From assembly GCA_937867415.1 (NCBI GenBank), contig CALMKO010000314.1, positions 1 through 37,411 on the forward strand: a stretch of DNA of 37,411 nucleotides, given 5' to 3'. A model generated the notes under the pieces. That model did no database searches, had not been told where the DNA came from, and saw only the letters and a program-made list of their open reading frames with translations. Of this stretch, positions 11,146 through 20,226 are shown piece after piece. This DNA is from an uncultured Verrucomicrobiota bacterium (GTDB lineage Bacteria; Verrucomicrobiota; Verrucomicrobiia; Verrucomicrobiales; Akkermansiaceae). Within the stretch, counting starts at the first letter, position 1. The number at the start of each line of letters is the position of its first letter. A program made the translations under genes and the position numbers.

Positions 11146-11781
11146 ATGCAAGAATTTCTCGACCTTTTCCTCCACCTGCCCGAGCACCTTCGCACCTTCA
11201 TCAGTGTGAACGGCAATCTGGTTTACGGCCTGCTTTTCCTCATTATTTTCTGTGAAACCGGGCTCGTCATCACGCCGTTTTTACCCGGGGACTCGCTGCT
11301 TTTCGCCATCGGGGCGATTGCCGCAGATCCCACGGCGAATCTCAACGTGTGGGTCGCTGGCGGGATCATCCTGGTCGCGGCGATCCTTGGCGACACGGTG
11401 AACTACTGGATCGGGAGGAAATTTGGCGCTTGGACGATGAGGACCTTCCCGAAAATCGTGAAGCCGGGCCACATCCAGAAAACCAATGAATTCTTCGTGA
11501 AGTACGGCGGCAAGACCATCATCATCGCGCGCTTCGTGCCGATCGTCCGCACCTTCGCCCCCTTCGTCGCAGGCTCGGGGGAGATGGATTACAAGCGCTT
11601 CATGTTTTTCAACGTTTTGGGGGCGGTTCTCTGGGTCGTCACACTCGTGCCGTGCGGATGGTTTTTTGGAAACATTCCGGTCATCAAGGCCAACTTCGAA
11701 CTCGTCGTCCTCGGGATCATCGGGTTCTCCATTTTGCCGATGATCATCGAAATCGCGAAGGCGAAACTGAAAAAGCCCTAA
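11146..11781 (+). CDS. DedA-family membrane protein
   Basis: This 211-residue multi-spanning inner-membrane protein belongs to the DedA/SNARE-associated family. Visible hallmarks are FLPGDSLLFAIGAIA (about 45-59), GDTVNYWIGRKFG (about 85-97), and IIIARFVPIVRTFAPFVAG (about 124-142), which carries the conserved Arg residues. Four to six hydrophobic segments are present. DedA proteins are implicated in lipid flipping (undecaprenyl phosphate or phosphatidylethanolamine) and membrane homeostasis. That suits a location right after plsY-gpsA, with only 4 nt between gpsA and this start. Its stop codon overlaps that of the convergent LipM-like gene. Confidence 0.9.
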   Translation: MQEFLDLFLHLPEHLRTFISVNGNLVYGLLFLIIFCETGLVITPFLPGDSLLFAIGAIAADPTANLNVWVAGGIILVAAILGDTVNYWIGRKFGAWTMRTFPKIVKPGHIQKTNEFFVKYGGKTIIIARFVPIVRTFAPFVAGSGEMDYKRFMFFNVLGAVLWVVTLVPCGWFFGNIPVIKANFELVVLGIIGFSILPMIIEIAKAKLKKP

Positions 11782-12455
11782 CGCCGGTCGGTCCAGTCCT
11801 CGCGGGCGTAGCGGGCCGCCACTCGGCTGGCAAGGTCATCTGGATCAGGCGCGAGCGTCACCTCTTCCCAGCGTGTGGCGAGTTTTCCAGCCAGATATTC
11901 CGCCCGGCTGTGGGACTCTGCGGCTGACCCGCAAGCAAGCGCAACCGATCCCTGGTGCAGGAGTCCCAGTTTCGAGCGTCGCTGTCCTGCCCCGGCGATT
12001 TTTTGTCCGGTGGGCCCCAAGAGATCGAAATTAACCGGATTCTCAAAGCAAAGCGCGGCGCCGGTCTCGGCATCACCAGCGCTCAGGCGGGTCTGGATCC
12101 CAGTCATTTGGAGCGCGGCCAGCAGTGCCAGGTGGATGCTCCGGTAGCTTGCGTCGCCGCGGGTCCTTGCCAGGGCTTCGTGGTGGGGGGCGACCAGGGT
12201 GTAGGTCCAATCCTCCCGGTGATCCACCAATCCGCCCCCTGTCCAGCGCCGCACCCATTTCACCTGCGGACAGGATTCGCGGGCTTCTGTGATTTTTCCA
12301 AAATACCCCAAGCTCCCCCAAGCGCCCTGCCATTGATAGATCCGCAGCAAGGGATGGCGGGTGGTTTCCAGCAACCACTCATCCACCGCCATGGCCTCGG
12401 TGCCGGGACGTCTGACCGGATCCATCCATAGCCGTAATTCCTGAAACACTTCCAT
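11778..12455 (-). CDS. Lipoyl/octanoyl transferase family protein (LipM/LplA-like)
   Basis: The protein has 225 residues from MEVFQELRLWMDP. It shows the biotin/lipoyl ligase fold: MAVDEWLLE, WVRRWTGGGLVDHREDWTYTL (about 67-87; the GGG loop binds the acyl group) and QKIAGAGQRR with Lys152. It lacks the C-terminal domain of E. coli LplA. Cys136 in ALCFENPVNFDLL sits where the LipM nucleophile is found, whereas ATP-dependent ligases usually have Arg-Asn-Asp there. This favours octanoyl transfer from acyl-ACP over lipoate ligation, but the argument is from motif recall. The frame is open upstream to 12590, yet that part does not look conserved. It is divergent from the chelatase gene and convergent with DedA. 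Confidence 0.75.
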   Translation of the reverse strand: MEVFQELRLWMDPVRRPGTEAMAVDEWLLETTRHPLLRIYQWQGAWGSLGYFGKITEARESCPQVKWVRRWTGGGLVDHREDWTYTLVAPHHEALARTRGDASYRSIHLALLAALQMTGIQTRLSAGDAETGAALCFENPVNFDLLGPTGQKIAGAGQRRSKLGLLHQGSVALACGSAAESHSRAEYLAGKLATRWEEVTLAPDPDDLASRVAARYAREDWTDRR

Positions 12456-12542
12456 CTGCCAGAGGCTCGGCTGAAATCCGAAAACTGAAAACTCAAAACT
12501 TCCCTGTCTTGCATTCCAGCGATCACTCGCCACCTTCCAAGC

Positions 12543-13355
12543 ATGTCCATCGCGCCCAAGCCAACCAGTGCCCTGCTCATCGTGGGGCATGGCTCCACTG
12601 AGAATCCTGATTCATCGACACCCTACTTCGAGCACGCGGATGAAATCCGCCGTCGCGGGCTCTTCGCCGAGGTTCATTGTTGCTTTTGGAAGGAAGAGCC
12701 ATCGATGCGGGAGGCGATGTATCTGATTGATTCTGATGAGGTCTACGTGGTTCCCGACTTCATCAGTGAGGGGTATTTCACCCAGGATGTGATCCCGCGC
12801 GAGCTTCAGCTCACCGGACCGACCACCGAGGTTAAAGGGAAAACCTACCACTACTGCCTGCCCGTCGGGGTGCACCGCTCGATGACCGGGCTGATCTTGA
12901 AGCGGGCCAAGGAGGTGGCCCCCGGGGTGGATCCCGCCGACACCACCCTGATCATCACCGGCCACGGCACCGGGCTGAACCAGAATTCCACCAAGGCCAT
13001 CCGCGATCAGGTGGACCTCATCGCAGCGTCAGGGGCGGGCTATGCGGCGGTGCTCGACGCTTACATGGAAGAACAACCGTTCATCGCGGAATGGGACAAG
13101 ATGTCACAGACCCCGAATGTGGTCGTGGTGCCATTTTTCATCTCGGACGGCCTGCACTCTTACCAGGACATCCCGGTCATGCTCGGCATTGAGAGTGAGG
13201 TCGGTGCTGCCGCCAGCCAGCGTGAAATCTTCCGTCACAACCCTCATTCCTTGCGTGAAAAAATGCTCTATTACAGCTCCGCCATCGGAACCGAACGCCT
13301 ACTGGCTGATGTGATTCTGGATCAGGTCGCGGATTTTGATAAGATTCATCAATAA
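12543..13355 (+). CDS. Two-module CbiX-type chelatase-like protein
   Basis: The 270-residue protein contains two tandem CbiX/SirB-like modules. Module 1 (about 8-115) begins LLIVGHGSTE with His16 and has PDFISEGYFTQDVIP. Module 2 (about 135-260) begins LIITGHGTGLNQNST with His141 and has VPFFISDGLHSYQDIPVML with His205. In class II chelatases two such histidines bind the metal going into sirohydrochlorin. Module 1 has Tyr/Phe where the second His would be, while module 2 keeps both, so one active site is likely. The gene precedes a DR2241-type Fe-S protein; in Deinococcus DR2241 these parts are, as I recall, in one polypeptide. The substrate (sirohydrochlorin or another tetrapyrrole) is not shown by sequence. 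Confidence 0.82.
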   Translation: MSIAPKPTSALLIVGHGSTENPDSSTPYFEHADEIRRRGLFAEVHCCFWKEEPSMREAMYLIDSDEVYVVPDFISEGYFTQDVIPRELQLTGPTTEVKGKTYHYCLPVGVHRSMTGLILKRAKEVAPGVDPADTTLIITGHGTGLNQNSTKAIRDQVDLIAASGAGYAAVLDAYMEEQPFIAEWDKMSQTPNVVVVPFFISDGLHSYQDIPVMLGIESEVGAAASQREIFRHNPHSLREKMLYYSSAIGTERLLADVILDQVADFDKIHQ

Positions 13356-13390
13356 TTCATCCTAAAAGGTTTACTATAATTTTTATTCAA

Positions 13391-14065
13391 ATGACTGCAA
13401 CGGCCACCCAACTCGGGAATCTCATCAAATCCGGCGTCCACCGAATGGGTGAAATCGAGATTAAAATAGATGATTCAAACAACCGCTTCATCCTTCATCA
13501 CTTTGAAGATCCGCTAATTCTGAATGACCCGACTTTCGGCGGTCTGGTGGTGCACGAGGGCCCGGAGAATGCGCGCGATATCTCCACCTATGCGGAGGAT
13601 GGCACGTATCGGTTCACGAAAGGGCAGGTTAACCTCAAGCGGGGTTGGGTGATGTTGTTGCGAAGTGCGGAGGAGCTCCGATTGGCCTTGGATCAATTTT
13701 ACCCTGCCTGTGTCGGGCTGTTTCTTGCGCAGCAGGGTGGGACCTTGGAAGTGGAGATGCTTCGGGACAAGTTGAACCGCCAGACCGGGATGTATCGCTT
13801 CGCCCGGTCCATCAGCGACGCGGGGGCGCAGAAACTGGTGCAGGAAGTCTGCGGGCCCGCTCATCAGTGCGCGAAGAAGATCCTGTGGAAGCTGGACGCG
13901 CAAACTCCGCTCGAAGATAGCGAGGCAAGCCGCTTCAATGGGATTCCCGGAAACGTTCCCGAGTCCAAGGCGATCCCTCTGCTTTGCCGTGAGGCATGCA
14001 ACCACTTTGTCGCAGAGTGTCGGAAAGCCGCAAAGGCGGAGTTCGAGGCGAAAAATGTGCAATGA
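13391..14065 (+). CDS. DR2241-family 4Fe-4S cluster protein
   Basis: The 224-residue protein resembles the C-terminal part of Deinococcus DR2241, which is described as a stabilising domain plus a 4Fe-4S binding domain. The N-terminal half (about 1-100) is a mixed alpha/beta region (IKSGVHRMGEIEIKI, GGLVVHEGPENARDIS). The C-terminal half has a C-x5-C motif (Cys154, Cys160) and, 38 residues later, C-x3-C (Cys199, Cys203), plus Cys107 and Cys210. This spacing is that of the Fe4S4 ligands of sirohaem sulfite and nitrite reductases. The gene lies 35 nt after the chelatase. TATAAT occurs at 13375-13380 just before the ATG, but no matching -35 was found. Its stop overlaps the rhomboid start (ATGA). 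The catalytic role is unknown; coupling to the chelatase product is an inference. Confidence 0.75.
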   Translation: MTATATQLGNLIKSGVHRMGEIEIKIDDSNNRFILHHFEDPLILNDPTFGGLVVHEGPENARDISTYAEDGTYRFTKGQVNLKRGWVMLLRSAEELRLALDQFYPACVGLFLAQQGGTLEVEMLRDKLNRQTGMYRFARSISDAGAQKLVQEVCGPAHQCAKKILWKLDAQTPLEDSEASRFNGIPGNVPESKAIPLLCREACNHFVAECRKAAKAEFEAKNVQ

Positions 14066-14961
14066 CTTCGGCTGAGTTACCGCCTGATTTGCAAGACTCC
14101 GCCGAACCTGATTCCGAGGAATGGGTGGAGGTGGGGCATTTCGCGTCGCTCCATCAGGCTCATGAACACGGCTTGGTGATTCTAGCGATGGGAGAGGCGT
14201 GCCGGGTGGTAGAGACGGAAGTCGTCGGAGAGTATGAGTTACAGGCGGAAGCACACCCGGCGCCGAGGGTAACCACCGAGCTGGATGCCTATCGTCAGGA
14301 CGCGGCCGCAGCGTCTCCAATCCCGCAGCGGCTCGTGGAGGGAAAAACCCACCCGGCAGGGTGGTGGCTGATTTGTCTCTGGGTGCTAGCCTTGATGGTG
14401 GTCTTCGAGCAACAGTCCCGGGATCCCTCGCTCGTGAGTAGGGCGGCCTCGTCCAATCTGGCATTTTTCGATTCGAAGGAATGGTGGCGACCATTCACCG
14501 CGCTTTTTCTTCACGCCAACTTGTCTCATTTGGCGGGAAATCTCGTGAGCGGCGTGATTTTCGGCGCGCTCGTATCCCGTGCACTCGGAGCCATGAAGGC
14601 ATGGGCGGTGATTTTGGCTTGTGGGACCGTGGGAAACATCATCACCGCACGGATCACTTACCCCGTGGAATTTGTGTCCTTGGGAGCGTCCACGGCCGTC
14701 TTTGCCGCCTTGGGGATCCTCTCCGGCCTCGGCGTTTCCGAAACCCTGCGCGATCGTGCCCGCCTGCCCTGGGCAAGAATCGCCGCGCCGGTAGTGGCGG
14801 GCTTGATTTTACTCGGCTGGCTCGGCGGCAGCCACCAGGCGCAGACCGACGTGCTCGGGCACGTTTTCGGCTTCAGCTCGGGCTTGGTGGCGGGGGTGAC
14901 ACTCGGCTCCTTGCAGTTGAGATCCGGCGGCGATGCCAAATCCGCTGGGACGGAGGCTTGA
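14062..14961 (+). CDS. Rhomboid-family intramembrane serine protease
   Basis: The protein has 299 residues. It has a soluble N-terminal region (about 1-100) beginning WVEVGHFASLHQAHEHGLVI, resembling the small domain found before some rhomboids. A membrane domain of about six helices follows. Catalytic features are present: FLHANLSHLAGN (His151, His156, Asn160), SLGASTAVFAALG with Ser210 as the nucleophile, and LGHVFGFSSG with His267. The protein should therefore be active and cleave membrane-protein helices in the inner membrane. Start ATG 14062 overlaps the previous stop by 4 nt; a longer upstream frame overlaps the Fe-S gene and is less likely. The coupling to the Fe-S protein is notable, but no substrate is evident. 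Confidence 0.9.
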   Translation: MTSAELPPDLQDSAEPDSEEWVEVGHFASLHQAHEHGLVILAMGEACRVVETEVVGEYELQAEAHPAPRVTTELDAYRQDAAAASPIPQRLVEGKTHPAGWWLICLWVLALMVVFEQQSRDPSLVSRAASSNLAFFDSKEWWRPFTALFLHANLSHLAGNLVSGVIFGALVSRALGAMKAWAVILACGTVGNIITARITYPVEFVSLGASTAVFAALGILSGLGVSETLRDRARLPWARIAAPVVAGLILLGWLGGSHQAQTDVLGHVFGFSSGLVAGVTLGSLQLRSGGDAKSAGTEA

Positions 14962-14992: not shown

Positions 14993-15853
14993 ATGCCGCG
15001 CATCGCCCTGCTCCAATCCGGAACTTTCGCCTCCAAGGCCGAATCCTTCGATCACCACGAAACGCTCATCCGCCAAGCTGCGGCGGGCGGCGCTAACATC
15101 GTGGTCACCCAGGAGCTTTTTTTGACACCCTACTTCTGCACGGTGGAGGATCCCGCTCTGTTCGACCTGGCGGATCCTTTGCCGGGTCCGGTCACGGACC
15201 GGCTCGGGAAACTGGCAGGGGAGCTGGGAATCGTCCTGATTTCCTCGCTTTTTGAGCACCGCGGCCCGGGGCTCTACCACAATACCGCTGCCATTCATGA
15301 TGCCGATGGCGGGTTGATGGGGCTGTATCGAAAGAGCCACATTCCACAGGATCCCGGGTTTGAGGAAAAATTCTATTTCACGCCCGGTGACAGCGGCTGG
15401 CCGGTGTGGGATACGCGGTTTGGGAAAATCGGGGTTCTGATTTGTTGGGATCAATGGTATCCCGAGGCTGCCCGCCTGATGGCCCTCGGGGGGGCGCAAA
15501 TCCTCGTGTATCCAACGGCGATCGGCTGGCTTCCCGAGGAAAAACCGGCGCTGGGAGACGCGCAGCACTGCGCCTGGGAGACTGTGCAGCGCGGCCATGC
15601 CGTCGCAAATGGCTGCTACCTCGCCGCGGTGAACCGCACCGGCTGCGAGGGCGATACCGAGTTCTGGGGGCGCTCGTTCATCGCCAACCCCTATGGTGAA
15701 ATCGTCGCCAAGGCATCCACCACCGAGCCGGAGATCCTCATACACGACGTGGATCTGCAAGCGGTCGAGAATTTCCGCAGGATCTGGCCCTTTTTCCGCG
15801 ACCGGCGCATTGATGCCTATGGTGACCTGACGCAGCGCTGGAGGTCGAGGTGA
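14993..15853 (+). CDS. Carbon-nitrogen hydrolase, probable N-carbamoylputrescine amidohydrolase
   Basis: This 286-residue nitrilase-superfamily enzyme has an intact Glu-Lys-Cys triad: Glu41 (TQELFLTPYFC), Lys114 (YRKSHIPQDPGF) and Cys151 (LICWDQWYPEAARL). Length and blocks (EKFYFTPGDSG, WGRSFIANPYGEI, RRIWPFFRDRR) match AguB, which converts N-carbamoylputrescine to putrescine. The usual partner, agmatine deiminase, is not in the window. Start ATG 14993 is 31 nt after the rhomboid stop and gives the standard beginning MPRIALLQ. Other amidohydrolase substrates cannot be excluded. Confidence 0.88.
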   Translation: MPRIALLQSGTFASKAESFDHHETLIRQAAAGGANIVVTQELFLTPYFCTVEDPALFDLADPLPGPVTDRLGKLAGELGIVLISSLFEHRGPGLYHNTAAIHDADGGLMGLYRKSHIPQDPGFEEKFYFTPGDSGWPVWDTRFGKIGVLICWDQWYPEAARLMALGGAQILVYPTAIGWLPEEKPALGDAQHCAWETVQRGHAVANGCYLAAVNRTGCEGDTEFWGRSFIANPYGEIVAKASTTEPEILIHDVDLQAVENFRRIWPFFRDRRIDAYGDLTQRWRSR

Positions 15854-15895
15854 TCTTGCTTCCCGCAGGCTCGAACCGTAAGATGGGAAAAGCAG

Positions 15896-15923
15896 TTGAT
15901 ACCGGAACCATGATGGGTATCAT
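15896..15923 (+). promoter_or_regulatory. Possible promoter of the LRR/ASH-repeat protein gene
   Basis: TTGATA (15896-15901) and TATCAT (15918-15923) are separated by 16 nt. If used, transcription starts near 15930, which would exclude the ATG and GTG codons upstream and favour the GTG at 15988 or TTG at 16027 as the start of the large secreted protein. Confidence 0.4.
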
Positions 15924-15987
15924 CCAGGGGAGGGGATCTTCAGGGATTTCCGTCTGTGAAATCCCATCGTTTCCAACCCAAAGCCAA

Positions 15988-18900
15988 GTGATCTCTCATC
16001 AGTCCTCAGATCCTGTTCATCATCCGTTGCGAGCCGTTTGGCTGTTCCTTGTCCTGCTCGCTTCCCTGATTGTGGCTCCTTTGGCGAGAGCGCAGGATTT
16101 TACTTTTTTTGTTTCGAACGGAGAGGCGACGATCACCTCTTACATCGGGACCTCACCGACGTTGAACATCCCGACGGTTATCAGTTCCTTTCCGGTTCGG
16201 GCGGTTGCGGACTATGCCTTCCAGTATAACTCGACCATCACCTCGGTGGTGATTCCAAATGGAGTCACCACCATCGGGGAGGGGGCTTTTCAGGGGTGCA
16301 GCGGCCTGACCACCATGAGCTTCCCGAACAGCATCGCCTCCATGGGGAACGATGCCTGTCGCGATTGTAGCGCGCTTGCGACCGTCACCATCGGGACGGG
16401 GCTTGCTTCGCTCGGAAGCAACGTGTTTGCAGGATGCTCGCTCTTGAGTTCCATCACCGTAGCAGTCGCCAATTTGTTCTACAGCAGCGAGGGCGGCGTC
16501 TTGTTTGACGAAGCGAGGACGCAGCTCATCCACTATCCTGCCAGGAAATCCGGGCCCTATGTGGTCCCTGCTACGGTGACGGGTATTGCCTCTTTCGCCT
16601 TTCAGGGAGCGGTCAATGCGTTCACGAGCGTGACTCTTCCTGCCGGCTTGACCAGCATCGGAGCCTATGCGTTTTCCGGTTGCACGCTGCTTACCAGCAT
16701 CACCATTCCTAACAGTGTGGTGCTGGTGGATCTTTTGGCATTCGGCGAATGCACGGGCATCACGAGCATCCATATCGGTTCCGGGGCTACCGATATTCGC
16801 ACCAGAGCCTTTTCCGGGTGTAGTAACCTGGTGGCGATCACGGTAGATCCGCTCAATCCCTCATACAGCAGTGTGGATGGTGTGTTTTTCGATAAATTCC
16901 AAACCCGATTGATTCAGTATCCCGCGAAAAAAGCCGGCCGCTATGTGGTGCCGACCGGTGTGGTGGTGCTGGAGCCATATGCCTTTGACTTCGCCACCAG
17001 CCTGACAAGCCTGAGCCTTCCTACGAGCGTGACCACCATCGGCGACTCTTGCTTTTCCCGTTGCAGTGCGCTGACGAGCATAGTCATTCCGGAAAGCGTC
17101 ACTCGGATCCTGGAATATACCTTCGAAGATTGCGCCAGGCTCACCAGTGTGACGGTCGGGAATGCGGTGACGGAAATCGGGAGTTTTGCTTTTTCCGGAT
17201 GTATCCGGCTCACAGGAGCCACCTTTGGCACAGGCCTGGCCAGTATTGGGGAAAATGCATTCAGCGGCTGCGGTCTTTTGGTAAGGGCGAGATTTTTCGG
17301 AAGTGCTCCAAGCATCGGCACGAGTGCCTTCTCGCCCGTTGGTGCCGGATTTACGGTTACCTATTCGGCGGGAGCCTCCGGTTTCACCAGCCCCACATGG
17401 AATGGTTTCGCGAGTGTCGCGAGCTCGACTTCTCCCCCTGAAATAGCGGTGGAACAACCGGCTACGAACACCCTGACTTCGGGAGTATCCGAGGTGGTTT
17501 TCGCGCCGGTGCTGGTCAATACGACCACCGTGAATACGTTCACCATCAGAAATTCAGGGGCAGATGTCCTTCGTGATATCGTGGCCACCCAGGACGGCCC
17601 CCATGCGGCGGAGTTCACGGTGAGCGCCGTCCCAGCCTTGTTGAACGGCGGGGCAAGCACCACCTTCACCGTCACATGCAGGCCTGCTGCCCAAGGGCTT
17701 CGCAAGGCGGTGCTTCATCTCTCAAGCAATGACTTCGATGAGAACCCGTTTGTGATCCATCTATCCGGATTTGGCAACGGACCCGCCATCGCGGTCGAGC
17801 AATTGCCCGCGAATACGCCACTTGCGGATGCCGCAAGCACGGTCGCATTCGGTGAGGTGCCACTCGTGACTCCTCAGGGAATCACCTTTACGATTCGGAA
17901 TCCCGGCACGGCGAGTTTGGCCAGCCTTCTCATCACCAAAAGCGGCACGCACAATGCGGAGTTCACGGTAGGCCCTCTGGGGGCTACCACGGTGGCCCCC
18001 GGTGGCAGCACCACCTTTACCGTGTCTTTCAGTCCCACCGCTATAGGCCTAAGAACCGCTGCGATCTCAATCGCGAGCAATGTGGTGGGTAGCATGAATC
18101 CTTTCACCTTCAACCTCACGGGGGTGGGAATCGCCCCGGAAATCGCGGCCGAGCTGGAAAACGGAACCAACCTCGTCGACAACGCCGCGGCGGTTTCCCA
18201 CGGGTCCACCCTCGTCGGGACCCAGATTTTGAGGAGTTACCTCATCCGTAACACCGGCGGCGCGAATCTCACGGGCCTCGCCATTACCAAGGCTGGCACC
18301 CACATGAATGATTTTGTGGTGACTCTGAGTCCGGTGGCTCCGGTTGCGCCGGGGAACTTTACCATGCTGACCGTTGCTTTCAATCCATCCGCAACGGGAG
18401 TCAGAACGGCAGTGATCCAGATCGCGAACAATGATACGGACGAAAATCCGTTTGACATCAATCTGTCAGGAACAGGCACGGCTCCTGACATTTCGGTGGA
18501 GCAGGTCACGGTCCTCGCCGATGCGGTATCGACGGTGGCTTACGGATCCTCAAACATCGGGACTGGTGTTGCCAGAGTTTTCACGGTCCGCAATCCAGGT
18601 AGCGCCAACCTTTTCAATCTGGCGCTGACCATCGACGGCACCCATGCCGCTGATTTCACCGTTACCGCGGCTCCGGTGAGCCCGGTTCTGCCCGCCGGGT
18701 TCACCACCTTCAGCGTGACCTTCAATCCCTCCGCCTCGGGAGCGCGCACCGCCACTTTGAGGATCGCCAGCAATGTGACCGGCACGAAAAATCCTTTTGA
18801 TATTGCACTCTCAGGGACCGGGCTTTTTCCTGAGATATCCGTGGAACAACCGGCAACCGTATTGCTCACTGATGACGTTTCCATCAGTAATTTCACTTCG

Positions 18901-20226
18901 ACCGTGGTCAATGCGACGACCGTCAACACCTTCACGATCCGTAATCTGGGGACCTCGGCGTTGACTGGCATCAGTATCACCAAGGACGGTGCCCATGCGG
19001 CGGACTTTACCGTCAGTGCGGTCGCGGCGAGTGTGGCGGTCGGAGTCAGCACCACCTTTACCGTCACCTTCCGACCTTCCGCGGTCGGGCTACGCACAGC
19101 AGCGATCCGCATCGCAAGCAACGACCTCAACGAAAACCCTTTCGATGTTCAGCTCGCAGGAACGGGGATCATCCCCGACATCGCCGTGGAACTGATGCCG
19201 AACAACGCTCCGTTGGTCGATGGTGTCAGCACCGTTCCGTTCGATATCGTCCCGATCAATACCACCAAGATCCTCTCATTCACGATTCGAAATTCCGGCA
19301 GTTCGAGTCTCACCAGCCTCGCGATCACCAAGACGGGAACGAACAACGCCGAGTTCACTGTGGGAGTTTTGGGTGCCACCACCCTGGCACCGGGGGCGAC
19401 CACCACGTTTACCATTTCCTTCAGGCCAACCGTCGTCGGTGCGCGGACCGCCGCCATTGCGATCGCAAGCAATGTCACGGGTGCGAAAAATCCGTTCAAC
19501 ATCAACCTCAACGGTGGGCTCTCCAGCCAAGCCGGCCTCGCTGCCTTGGCGCTCAGTCAAGGGACGCTAACACCCGCGTTTTCCACGACCATCGATCAGT
19601 ATTCAGCCAGCGTTGACAGCACGATTTCATCGCTAAGCGTGATTCCAACGGTCCTACAGGCCGGAGCCGTGGTGAGAGTGAATGGCGCGACGGTCGCCTC
19701 GGGGATATCAAGTTCGCCGATCCCGCTGGTGCTCGGGGCCAACCCGATCAGCGTGGTGGTCACCGCACCGGATGGGGTGACCACCCGCACTTATTCCGTC
19801 GAGGTCGGGAAAAACGACCCTTATGGAAGTTGGGCGCTGTCTGAGATGCTCACTACCGCCAATTCAGGCAGGTTGGATGATCCCGACCAAGACGGTATCC
19901 CCAACCTTCACGAGTATGCCTTCGGTACCGGACCGTTGGTCGGCGCGCCAGGCCCGCTCGCGCTCAACGGGGGGGCGATCAGCCGCCGGGGCACTCCTTG
20001 GGTTGAAAGTTCCGGGGCTGCGGTTAACCAGGCGGTTTTCATACGCCGTGCGGATTATCTAGCAGCCGGACTTGTCTATACCCCGCAGTTCTCCAGCGAT
20101 ATGATTCTGTGGACCGATTCGGCGGAGATTCCCACGGTGCGTGCCGATGACGGCTTGGTGCAGGCTGTCTCCGTGCCGTTTCCTGCCGACAGGCCGTTTT
20201 TCCGAGTCGCCGTTAGATTGCCTTGA
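15988..20226 (+). CDS. Giant secreted protein: BspA-type LRRs, six ASH repeats, cadherin-like domain
   Basis: The protein has about 1412 residues. A signal peptide (WLFLVLLASLIVAPLARAQD) is clear, so export is expected. Next come many BspA/LRR_5 leucine-rich repeats (about 16160-17340; units such as SVTTIGDSCFSRCSALTSIV). Six ASPM-SPD2-Hydin-like domains of about 115 residues follow (17438-19515), each opening like PEIAVEQ. Then there is a cadherin-like beta-sandwich (ALALSQGTLTPAFSTTIDQY) and a C-terminal region with DDPDQDGIPNLHEYAFG, common in verrucomicrobial exported proteins. The role is probably adhesion or surface binding. The start is uncertain: the frame is open from GTG 15850, which overlaps the previous stop. 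I chose GTG 15988 for its sensible signal peptide and the promoter-like site; TTG 16027 is equally possible. Confidence 0.82.
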   Translation: MISHQSSDPVHHPLRAVWLFLVLLASLIVAPLARAQDFTFFVSNGEATITSYIGTSPTLNIPTVISSFPVRAVADYAFQYNSTITSVVIPNGVTTIGEGAFQGCSGLTTMSFPNSIASMGNDACRDCSALATVTIGTGLASLGSNVFAGCSLLSSITVAVANLFYSSEGGVLFDEARTQLIHYPARKSGPYVVPATVTGIASFAFQGAVNAFTSVTLPAGLTSIGAYAFSGCTLLTSITIPNSVVLVDLLAFGECTGITSIHIGSGATDIRTRAFSGCSNLVAITVDPLNPSYSSVDGVFFDKFQTRLIQYPAKKAGRYVVPTGVVVLEPYAFDFATSLTSLSLPTSVTTIGDSCFSRCSALTSIVIPESVTRILEYTFEDCARLTSVTVGNAVTEIGSFAFSGCIRLTGATFGTGLASIGENAFSGCGLLVRARFFGSAPSIGTSAFSPVGAGFTVTYSAGASGFTSPTWNGFASVASSTSPPEIAVEQPATNTLTSGVSEVVFAPVLVNTTTVNTFTIRNSGADVLRDIVATQDGPHAAEFTVSAVPALLNGGASTTFTVTCRPAAQGLRKAVLHLSSNDFDENPFVIHLSGFGNGPAIAVEQLPANTPLADAASTVAFGEVPLVTPQGITFTIRNPGTASLASLLITKSGTHNAEFTVGPLGATTVAPGGSTTFTVSFSPTAIGLRTAAISIASNVVGSMNPFTFNLTGVGIAPEIAAELENGTNLVDNAAAVSHGSTLVGTQILRSYLIRNTGGANLTGLAITKAGTHMNDFVVTLSPVAPVAPGNFTMLTVAFNPSATGVRTAVIQIANNDTDENPFDINLSGTGTAPDISVEQVTVLADAVSTVAYGSSNIGTGVARVFTVRNPGSANLFNLALTIDGTHAADFTVTAAPVSPVLPAGFTTFSVTFNPSASGARTATLRIASNVTGTKNPFDIALSGTGLFPEISVEQPATVLLTDDVSISNFTSTVVNATTVNTFTIRNLGTSALTGISITKDGAHAADFTVSAVAASVAVGVSTTFTVTFRPSAVGLRTAAIRIASNDLNENPFDVQLAGTGIIPDIAVELMPNNAPLVDGVSTVPFDIVPINTTKILSFTIRNSGSSSLTSLAITKTGTNNAEFTVGVLGATTLAPGATTTFTISFRPTVVGARTAAIAIASNVTGAKNPFNINLNGGLSSQAGLAALALSQGTLTPAFSTTIDQYSASVDSTISSLSVIPTVLQAGAVVRVNGATVASGISSSPIPLVLGANPISVVVTAPDGVTTRTYSVEVGKNDPYGSWALSEMLTTANSGRLDDPDQDGIPNLHEYAFGTGPLVGAPGPLALNGGAISRRGTPWVESSGAAVNQAVFIRRADYLAAGLVYTPQFSSDMILWTDSAEIPTVRADDGLVQAVSVPFPADRPFFRVAVRLP
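17438..19515 (+). repeat. Six tandem ~345-bp in-frame repeats encoding ASH domains
   Basis: Units begin near 17438, 17782, 18136, 18484, 18830 and 19174, each encoding P-x-I-(A/S)-V/A-E-Q/L and ending near FxxxLSGxG. Unit lengths are 341-354 bp, a multiple-of-three array. Shared wording such as TFTVTFRP and IASN(V/D) marks each domain. The array probably expanded by duplication. Confidence 0.85.

Follow-up and report, generated by a model that had tools for sequence, protein, structure and literature searches.

A chelatase and a four-cysteine protein encoded side by side in an Akkermansiaceae genome, read from sequence and predicted fold as a split form of DR2241 that probably serves sirohaem formation

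Why should a small protein whose four cysteines are spaced exactly as in sulfite reductase (SiR) be encoded directly behind a CbiX-type chelatase, and is it an enzyme in its own right? The question is raised by two neighbouring genes in a contig of an uncultured Akkermansiaceae bacterium (GCA_937867415.1, contig CALMKO010000314.1); the whole stretch analysed, 37,411 nucleotides long, is called the window. A first-pass annotation made from the letters alone had proposed a small, separate tetrapyrrole-FeS enzyme or carrier fed by its own chelatase. The two open reading frames that it described, ORF1 and ORF2 below, are confirmed; they lie on the same strand, 35 bp apart, and carry the following features:

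12543..13355, + strand: ORF1, doubled CbiX chelatase, 270 aa (Pfam CbiX 3.9e-22 over two stretches), corresponding to the N-terminal half of DR2241
12588..12590, + strand: His16 codon (GHGS), N-terminal lobe of ORF1
12963..12965, + strand: His141 codon (GHGT), C-terminal lobe of ORF1, candidate catalytic histidine
13155..13157, + strand: His205 codon (DGLHS), C-terminal lobe of ORF1, candidate catalytic histidine
13356..13390, + strand: gap of 35 bp between ORF1 and ORF2, the split point relative to DR2241
13391..14065, + strand: ORF2, Fe-S subunit, 224 aa, equivalent to the C-terminal half of DR2241 (Pfam; VIA-align to 2jh3_A)
13439..13714, + strand: DR2241 stabilising domain PF18069, ORF2 residues 17-108 (Pfam 1.8e-12)
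13739..14026, + strand: Fer4_23 domain PF18009, ORF2 residues 117-212 (Pfam 2.8e-17)
13778..13798, + strand: RQTGMYR motif, ORF2 residues 130-136 (alignment of relatives)
13850..13852, + strand: Cys154 codon of ORF2
13868..13870, + strand: Cys160 codon of ORF2
13985..13987, + strand: Cys199 codon of ORF2
13997..13999, + strand: Cys203 codon of ORF2

Judged by sequence, the pair is DR2241 of Deinococcus radiodurans (PDB 2JH3) divided into two genes, since ORF1 and a profile of the ORF2 family match opposite halves of that protein. By phmmer ORF1 matched 2jh3 residues 5-226 at 2.6e-21 and the sirohaem chelatase 4ccs at 2.9e-10; a 25-row ORF2-family profile matched 2jh3 residues 287-465 at 7.5e-28 with all four cysteines aligned. 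The Pfam bit scores of ORF2 are well above their cut-offs for both Fer4_23 (63.3; cut-off 27) and the DR2241 stabilising domain (47.5; cut-off 26.4), and membership of a Pfam family named for 4Fe-4S marks it as a predicted four-cysteine Fe-S protein. Residues Q131, G133 and Y135 of its RQTGMYR motif are invariant in an alignment of 25 of the 121 family members.

The predicted folds point the same way. An AlphaFold2 model of ORF2, for which 63 of 80 named loci were aligned besides the window protein, reached pLDDT 94.4 and pTM 0.88, and the only Foldseek matches at or below 0.001 were two 2jh3 chains. VIA-align placed the model on 2jh3_A with Z 19.7 over 189 aligned residues (rmsd 2.6 Å), the next best match having Z 4.5. 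The model of a fused relative (L195, 505 aa; pLDDT 90.3) aligned to 2jh3 with Z 35.5 over 433 residues, followed by SirB (20.4) and the sirohaem CbiX 4ccs (18.7). The first-pass annotation had named DR2241 as a relative, and sequence and fold agree with that choice. The likeness covers the sequence of both ORFs, the fold through the fused relative and the alignment of the four cysteines; the difference is that DR2241 is a single polypeptide with its cysteines at 2-24-3 (counted from alignments), whereas the window has two genes and a spacing of 5-38-3. The doubled CbiX is absent from the ORF2 polypeptide itself and lies in the separate gene 35 bp upstream, making this a split variant. The DR2241 type has already been described, and it is functionally uncharacterised as far as the literature searched shows.

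The cysteine spacing that prompted the question is exact. In ORF2 it reads Cys154-x5-Cys160-x38-Cys199-x3-Cys203, and the first-pass annotation had given the E. coli K-12 CysI spacing correctly: 5-38-3 at Cys434/440/479/483. The window genome's own SiR has it too (cysteines 428/434/473/477); with this one counted, the spacing is present in 12 of 13 SiR frames that were read, the thirteenth (L033) ending at its contig end. Within the window the pattern C-x5-C-x38-C-x3-C occurs in ORF2 only, out of 332 open frames of at least 60 aa. The four cysteines were also expected to be conserved in homologues, and 120 of 121 Fer4_23 family members retain all of them. The exception (G063) is an open fused frame in which Tyr replaces the first cysteine and Ser the third, and it is left out of the spacing counts. 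The spacing is another matter: 5-38-3 is found in 73 of the 120 four-cysteine members, namely in 64/65 from the window's genus versus 9/55 elsewhere in the order, and in none of the 10 Fer4_23 genomes read outside the order (of 11 such genomes; G267 was left out). Among relatives the first gap ranges from 2 to 5 and the second from 22 to 41; the third is always 3, the C-x3-C of cysteines three and four being invariant wherever both are present.

ORF2 is like CysI in its 5-38-3 spacing and unlike it in lacking NIR_SIR and NIR_SIR_ferr domains (Pfam at E ≤ 1 returned Fer4_23 and DR2241 only) and in belonging to a family where the spacing varies. No SiR chain is among the listed Foldseek and VIA-align matches of the ORF2 model, whose sole strong fold match is DR2241. 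Kinship with sulfite reductase, suggested by the spacing, is set aside on domain content and spacing drift; because the spacing varies across ORF2's family, we read the match to CysI, from sequence, as a chance likeness established chiefly within a single lineage. The larger idea of the first-pass annotation, that ORF2 itself binds a metallo-tetrapyrrole beside its cluster and acts, supplied by the chelatase, as a small sirohaem-FeS enzyme or carrier, meets evidence of both kinds here. The invariant C-x3-C speaks for it, and against it count the missing sequence match to SiR, the drifting spacing and the loss of two of the four cysteines in G063, whose fused frame stays open.

How closely the two parts travel together bears on the same idea. 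Fer4_23 was found in 119 of 145 related genomes, at 121 places, of which 47 have CbiX in the same frame (fused), 68 have it adjoining on the same strand and 6 lack it. The co-occurrence with a chelatase across genomes that the first-pass annotation had looked to is therefore seen at 115/121 places, and five of the remaining six lie at contig ends; the sixth is a genuine exception: its genome, G101 (82% complete), has no match to CbiX or SiR. By genome, CbiX (E ≤ 0.001) is present in 113/119 Fer4_23-positive versus 10/26 Fer4_23-negative relatives (123/145 overall), and outside the order in 11/11 genomes with Fer4_23. A quick tree without bootstraps, built from members longer than 150 aa that have CbiX, implies at least eight changes between the fused and split states, and such repeated switching fits two parts working together. 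A wider scan with one motif, of which the best 80 of 230 confirmed loci were considered (many on contigs shared with the first set), gave 62 split and 13 fused loci and 5 without CbiX in the stretch. Their titles name Akkermansiaceae, Verrucomicrobia/-aceae, Akkermansia, Luteolibacter, Haloferula, Prosthecobacter and Roseibacillus, and one just 'Bacterium'. The pair is real and well conserved. Of the proposed small separate enzyme, the separate gene stands, but the 47 fusions to CbiX make ORF2 easier to understand as one half, split off, of a multi-domain chelatase that is already known; a protein so often fused to the chelatase looks like a subunit of it and less like an independent carrier.

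What such a pair might make is suggested by the rest of the genome, which is 96% complete in 470 contigs. Within it, CbiX is matched by both lobes of ORF1 and by nothing else. A CysJ-type reductase, SiR and PAPS reductase (CysH) are clustered on one contig (C130), and HemA-HemC-SUMT/HemD lie on another (C62); CbiD gave no match, and no CysG/SirC was found. With a single CbiX, no CbiD and no CysG/SirC found in a genome of this completeness, ORF1 is the sole candidate seen for its sirohaem chelatase. We favour, with a probability of about 0.62, the reading that ORF1 and ORF2 together constitute a class II sirohydrochlorin ferrochelatase of two subunits, which supplies CysJ-SiR-CysH with sirohaem and in which the Fe-S cluster is accessory. 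ORF1 would insert Fe2+ into sirohydrochlorin through H141/H205 of its C-terminal lobe, and the sirohaem would go to the CysJ-SiR-CysH operon. ORF2, itself no sulfite reductase on this reading, would hold a four-cysteine Fe-S cluster and dock on ORF1 as the extra domains of DR2241 do. We infer iron as the metal from the SiR operon, SUMT and the absence of CbiD; the two proteins presumably bind each other, and the cluster may be structural or stabilising, or serve docking, or be redox- or iron-responsive, rather than catalytic.

Among the relatives, NIR_SIR is found in 138/145 and SUMT in 133/145. In one (G111) SiR and the fused gene are 2.3 kb apart, and four others (G121, G124, G136, G141) have the gene no more than about 6 kb from SUMT. 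The candidate pair H141/H205 sits in one lobe, the C-terminal one. In the portion of PMC7689651 available, the histidine pair is in the C-terminal lobe in the Paracoccus sirohaem enzyme and in the N-terminal lobe in the Bacillus megaterium cobaltochelatase. The alphaproteobacterial Paracoccus CbiX (PDB 4CCS) resembles ORF1 further in being a doubled CbiX that makes sirohaem, and differs in that the available text of PMC4063343 mentions no Fe-S subunit. A CbiX-type enzyme has been proposed for sirohaem in haloarchaea too, where CbiX2 (HVO_1128 and orthologues) is a predicted sirohaem ferrochelatase in the passages available of PMC8305020 and PMC3403918; the Haloferax volcanii genome has a Fer4_23 match.

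The names given to relatives in the PDB and in papers suggest another metal: DR2241 is listed as a predicted sirohydrochlorin cobaltochelatase, and class II enzymes mostly lack metal specificity, according to the available part of PMC7689651. That the pair is a cobaltochelatase for vitamin B12 is nevertheless most improbable. CbiD is present in only 1/145 relatives (G051) and missing from the window's genome, which disfavours a role in cobalamin, and this lone relative has, in addition to a DR2241-type pair, a second and different CbiX beside its cbi genes with the histidines in the N-terminal lobe. The His141 column holds His in 18 of its 19 occupied rows (three genomes entering twice); the cobalamin-cluster CbiX has Arg.

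Supply of SiR does not seem to be the whole story, however. NIR_SIR is missing in 4 of the 119 Fer4_23-positive relatives (G008, G052, G053, G101) and in 4 of the 11 Fer4_23 genomes outside the order, and sulfite reductase supply therefore cannot be the family's only role. Nor does SiR presence separate the groups: 115/119 relatives with Fer4_23 have it, as do 23/26 without. Since 14 SiR-positive relatives, 10 of them at least 90% complete, have no CbiX, Fer4_23 or CysG/SirC above cut-off, an unrecognised chelatase seems to be present in the order and could occur in the window's genome as well. Some of the SiR-positive genomes that lack CbiX were inspected by eye around SUMT and SiR, and no shared chelatase candidate stood out.

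Three genomes, 96-98% complete (G084, G085, G095), bear directly on the role of the Fe-S part: each combines SiR with a related CbiX whose histidines are the same, and none has Fer4_23. They form long branches of unsure placement in a quick CbiX tree from which all but 12 members of the genus were left out. Given such genomes, the Fe-S part looks dispensable for sirohaem formation as such, and several chelatases contain Fe-S centres for reasons that the available part of PMC7689651 describes as unclear.

One answer would be that ORF2 is the missing precorrin-2 dehydrogenase, or its electron taker, handing the oxidised product straight to ORF1. The gap is there: cysG_Nterm (TIGR01470), the CysG/SirC model, is above cut-off in 0/145 relatives (41 weaker matches, of which those read are glutamyl-tRNA reductase), yet SUMT is in 133 of them, and among 193 genomes of the phylum SirC is above cut-off in 42 and Fer4_23 in 16, without overlap. 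That lack of overlap is an effect of clade, the 16 Fer4_23 genomes all belonging to the class of the window's genome and the 42 SirC genomes all falling outside that class. Two control genomes, Deinobacterium chartae and H. volcanii, match both Fer4_23 and cysG_Nterm; the three genomes with SiR and the same-histidine CbiX have neither Fer4_23 nor SirC above cut-off; and the fold matches of ORF2 other than 2jh3 stay at or below Z 4.5. An NCBIfam search with ORF2 at E ≤ 1 likewise gave no TIGR01470 match. Genomes with both and SiR genomes with neither weaken the replacement of SirC by the Fe-S subunit, and we regard the dehydrogenase role as quite unlikely. Weak NAD_binding_7 matches (128/145) were considered as SirC and set aside; near hemC, the ones read turned out to be glutamyl-tRNA reductase, as Pfam showed for L042 and inspection by eye for L035 and L039. 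The same search returned a second set of weak matches, frames of about 265-300 aa that occur in the genus and not in the window's genome.

A known parallel for a cluster on such an enzyme is B. megaterium CbiXL, a class II chelatase with a 4Fe-4S centre of unclear purpose; it differs in its MxCxxC motif, His-rich tail, N-lobe histidines and use of cobalt (all from the part of PMC7689651 available). The same source reports that its tail is dispensable for cobalt insertion and proposes metal storage or delivery. By analogy with this Fe-S/His-rich tail, the cluster of ORF2 could be a store or donor of the inserted Fe2+. No His-rich stretch was seen by eye in ORF1 or ORF2, and ORF2 lacks any CxxC and thus the MxCxxC of CbiXL; the four cysteines almost never vary, as expected for a stable cluster. 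Iron storage is accordingly an improbable function for it, and a two-subunit ferrochelatase with an accessory cluster is still the reading that we prefer.

The genomes without a NIR_SIR match leave room for a tetrapyrrole-FeS end user. Outside the order NIR_SIR is found in 7/11 Fer4_23 genomes; the other four (G156, G179, G200, G308; 98-100% complete) have CbiX and Fer4_23 and no match to it. Two of them, G179 and G200, each consist of one 0.9-Mb contig; the latter, with 917,278 bases, was searched by tblastn. In G200, hemL, hemA, hemB, hemC, SUMT/HemD, CbiX and Fer4_23 were all found; hemE and hemF gave no match at E 1. Best values were 0.08 for SiR, 0.034 for SirC, 0.15 for CbiD and 0.40 for CysH; E. 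coli CysI had no match, and hemH reached 0.007 over 68 residues within a frame matching the CcsB model. The absence of hemE and hemH is as seen with E. coli queries and sequence motifs; the corresponding queries for hemB and hemL succeeded in locating these genes, and a warning in the available part of PMC4607532 is that a diverged hemE may exist.

Pfam confirmed SUMT/HemD (the HemD domain being fused to SUMT), hemB, hemC, CbiX and Fer4_23 with the stabilising domain, and added a COX1 oxidase, a UbiA/CyoE-type protein and a CysJ-like FAD/NAD reductase without a flavodoxin domain. These cells thus encode a haem-copper oxidase. A haem route of the AHB type was expected, and no AhbC/AhbD-like protein was then found among the six radical SAM proteins (KamA-type, MiaB, HemW, MqnE, MqnC and LipA); these came from the eight open frames of at least 230 aa with CxxxCxxC, the other two not looking radical SAM-like by eye. 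A plasmid search with a stretch of G200 found nothing. The CbiX and Fer4_23 genes, about 14 kb apart in G200, retain their histidines and cysteines. In the single genome pair compared (G200 versus G179), dN/dS is 0.13 for CbiX and 0.14 for Fer4_23 by NG86 (0.19 and 0.22 by YN00). In this genome, then, the route to the chelatase product is retained, and no known user of the product was found.

These observations favour the idea of ORF2 as a small tetrapyrrole enzyme or carrier: four nearly complete genomes with the pair and no NIR_SIR match, no known sirohaem user in a single 917-kb contig, a retained CysJ-like reductase and low dN/dS in both genes. Weighed with the points against it given above, it is nonetheless very improbable for ORF2. 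For Verrucomicrobia without a sulfite/nitrite reductase, those with 0.9-Mb genomes included, we speculate on something broader, though unlikely: that their tetrapyrrole pathway ends at the pair and feeds an undescribed use of metallo-sirohydrochlorin, the Fe-S protein acting as a carrier or the product starting a novel haem route. Such a route would differ from the classical one, for which no hemE/hemH was found, and from the sirohaem-dependent one already known, for which no AhbC/AhbD-like radical SAM protein was found.

In the organism of the window, the pair probably makes sirohaem for sulfur assimilation. In the family at large, the retention of a product route without a known user is the most interesting result. 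The SiR-less genomes touch on a gap in the haem pathway noted by the authors of the genome of Xiphinematobacter, a nematode symbiont, who, in the part of PMC4607532 available, report haem genes missing, including hemD, hemE, hemY and hemH, and leave the intactness of the pathway undecided. The relatives offer natural controls: fused forms, the three chelatase-only genomes, the form that has lost two cysteines and the SiR-less genomes. Since the Fe-S part is encoded separately, one can delete, exchange or purify it and leave the chelatase as it is, and the split puts the long-standing question of what Fe-S centres do in these enzymes within direct experimental reach.

Three open frames lie beside or near the DR2241-type pair, which consists of ORF1 (doubled CbiX chelatase) and ORF2 (Fe-S subunit carrying the Fer4_23 domain), in the window:

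11778-12590 (minus strand), open frame resembling a lipoate ligase
14062-14961, rhomboid-type gene (Pfam 9.9e-23)
15850-20226, open frame of 1458 aa containing numerous repeated units; by eye it resembles a surface protein

The likely ATG of the rhomboid-type gene overlaps the stop of ORF2 (ATGA), and no homologue of this gene was found at 1e-10 in the 80 named loci (the best 80 of 230 confirmed). The lipoate-ligase-like frame is divergent from ORF1, overlaps the ORF1 start as listed and has a homologue in 37 of these 80 loci.

Two relatives from the window's order harbor exceptional Fer4_23 members. G063 encodes a fused DR2241-type protein (locus L145) with Tyr and Ser in place of two of the four cysteines; it is a natural variant that lacks the standard four-cysteine site. 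G101 presents a Fer4_23 gene without CbiX upstream (L016, L053), and neither CbiX nor sulfite reductase haemoprotein (SiR) had a match in this genome, which is 82% complete.

Outside the order, the neighbour of Fer4_23 was compared in four genomes that keep the pair (G200, G156, G179 and G308; loci L256-L259). In G200, Fer4_23 is followed by a gene for an aminofutalosine deaminase-type amidohydrolase (1.4e-35, under the cut-off for that model); frames adjoining Fer4_23 in G156 and G308 are similar to it by eye, and in G179 a frame lies at the equivalent position by Fer4_23. Both MqnC and MqnE are present in G200 (G200 loci, L284-L329). This 917-kb genome, a single contig in which neither hemE nor hemH was found, encodes a haem-copper oxidase, a CcsB-like protein and HemW, and it keeps a CysJ-like reductase, with no SiR found.

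Canonical precorrin-2 dehydrogenase, searched as cysG_Nterm, was over cut-off in none of the 145 relatives, 133 of which have SUMT. Across the phylum it was over cut-off in 42 of 193 genomes, every one outside the window's class. Fourteen SiR-positive relatives (G020, G025, G031, G041, G075, G077, G081, G083, G087, G089, G102, G104, G107 and G122), of which 10 are at least 90% complete, had no CbiX, Fer4_23 or CysG/SirC over cut-off. For part of these genomes the genes around SUMT and SiR were inspected by eye, and no shared chelatase candidate emerged. It seems that such SiR-positive relatives possess an unrecognised sirohaem chelatase.
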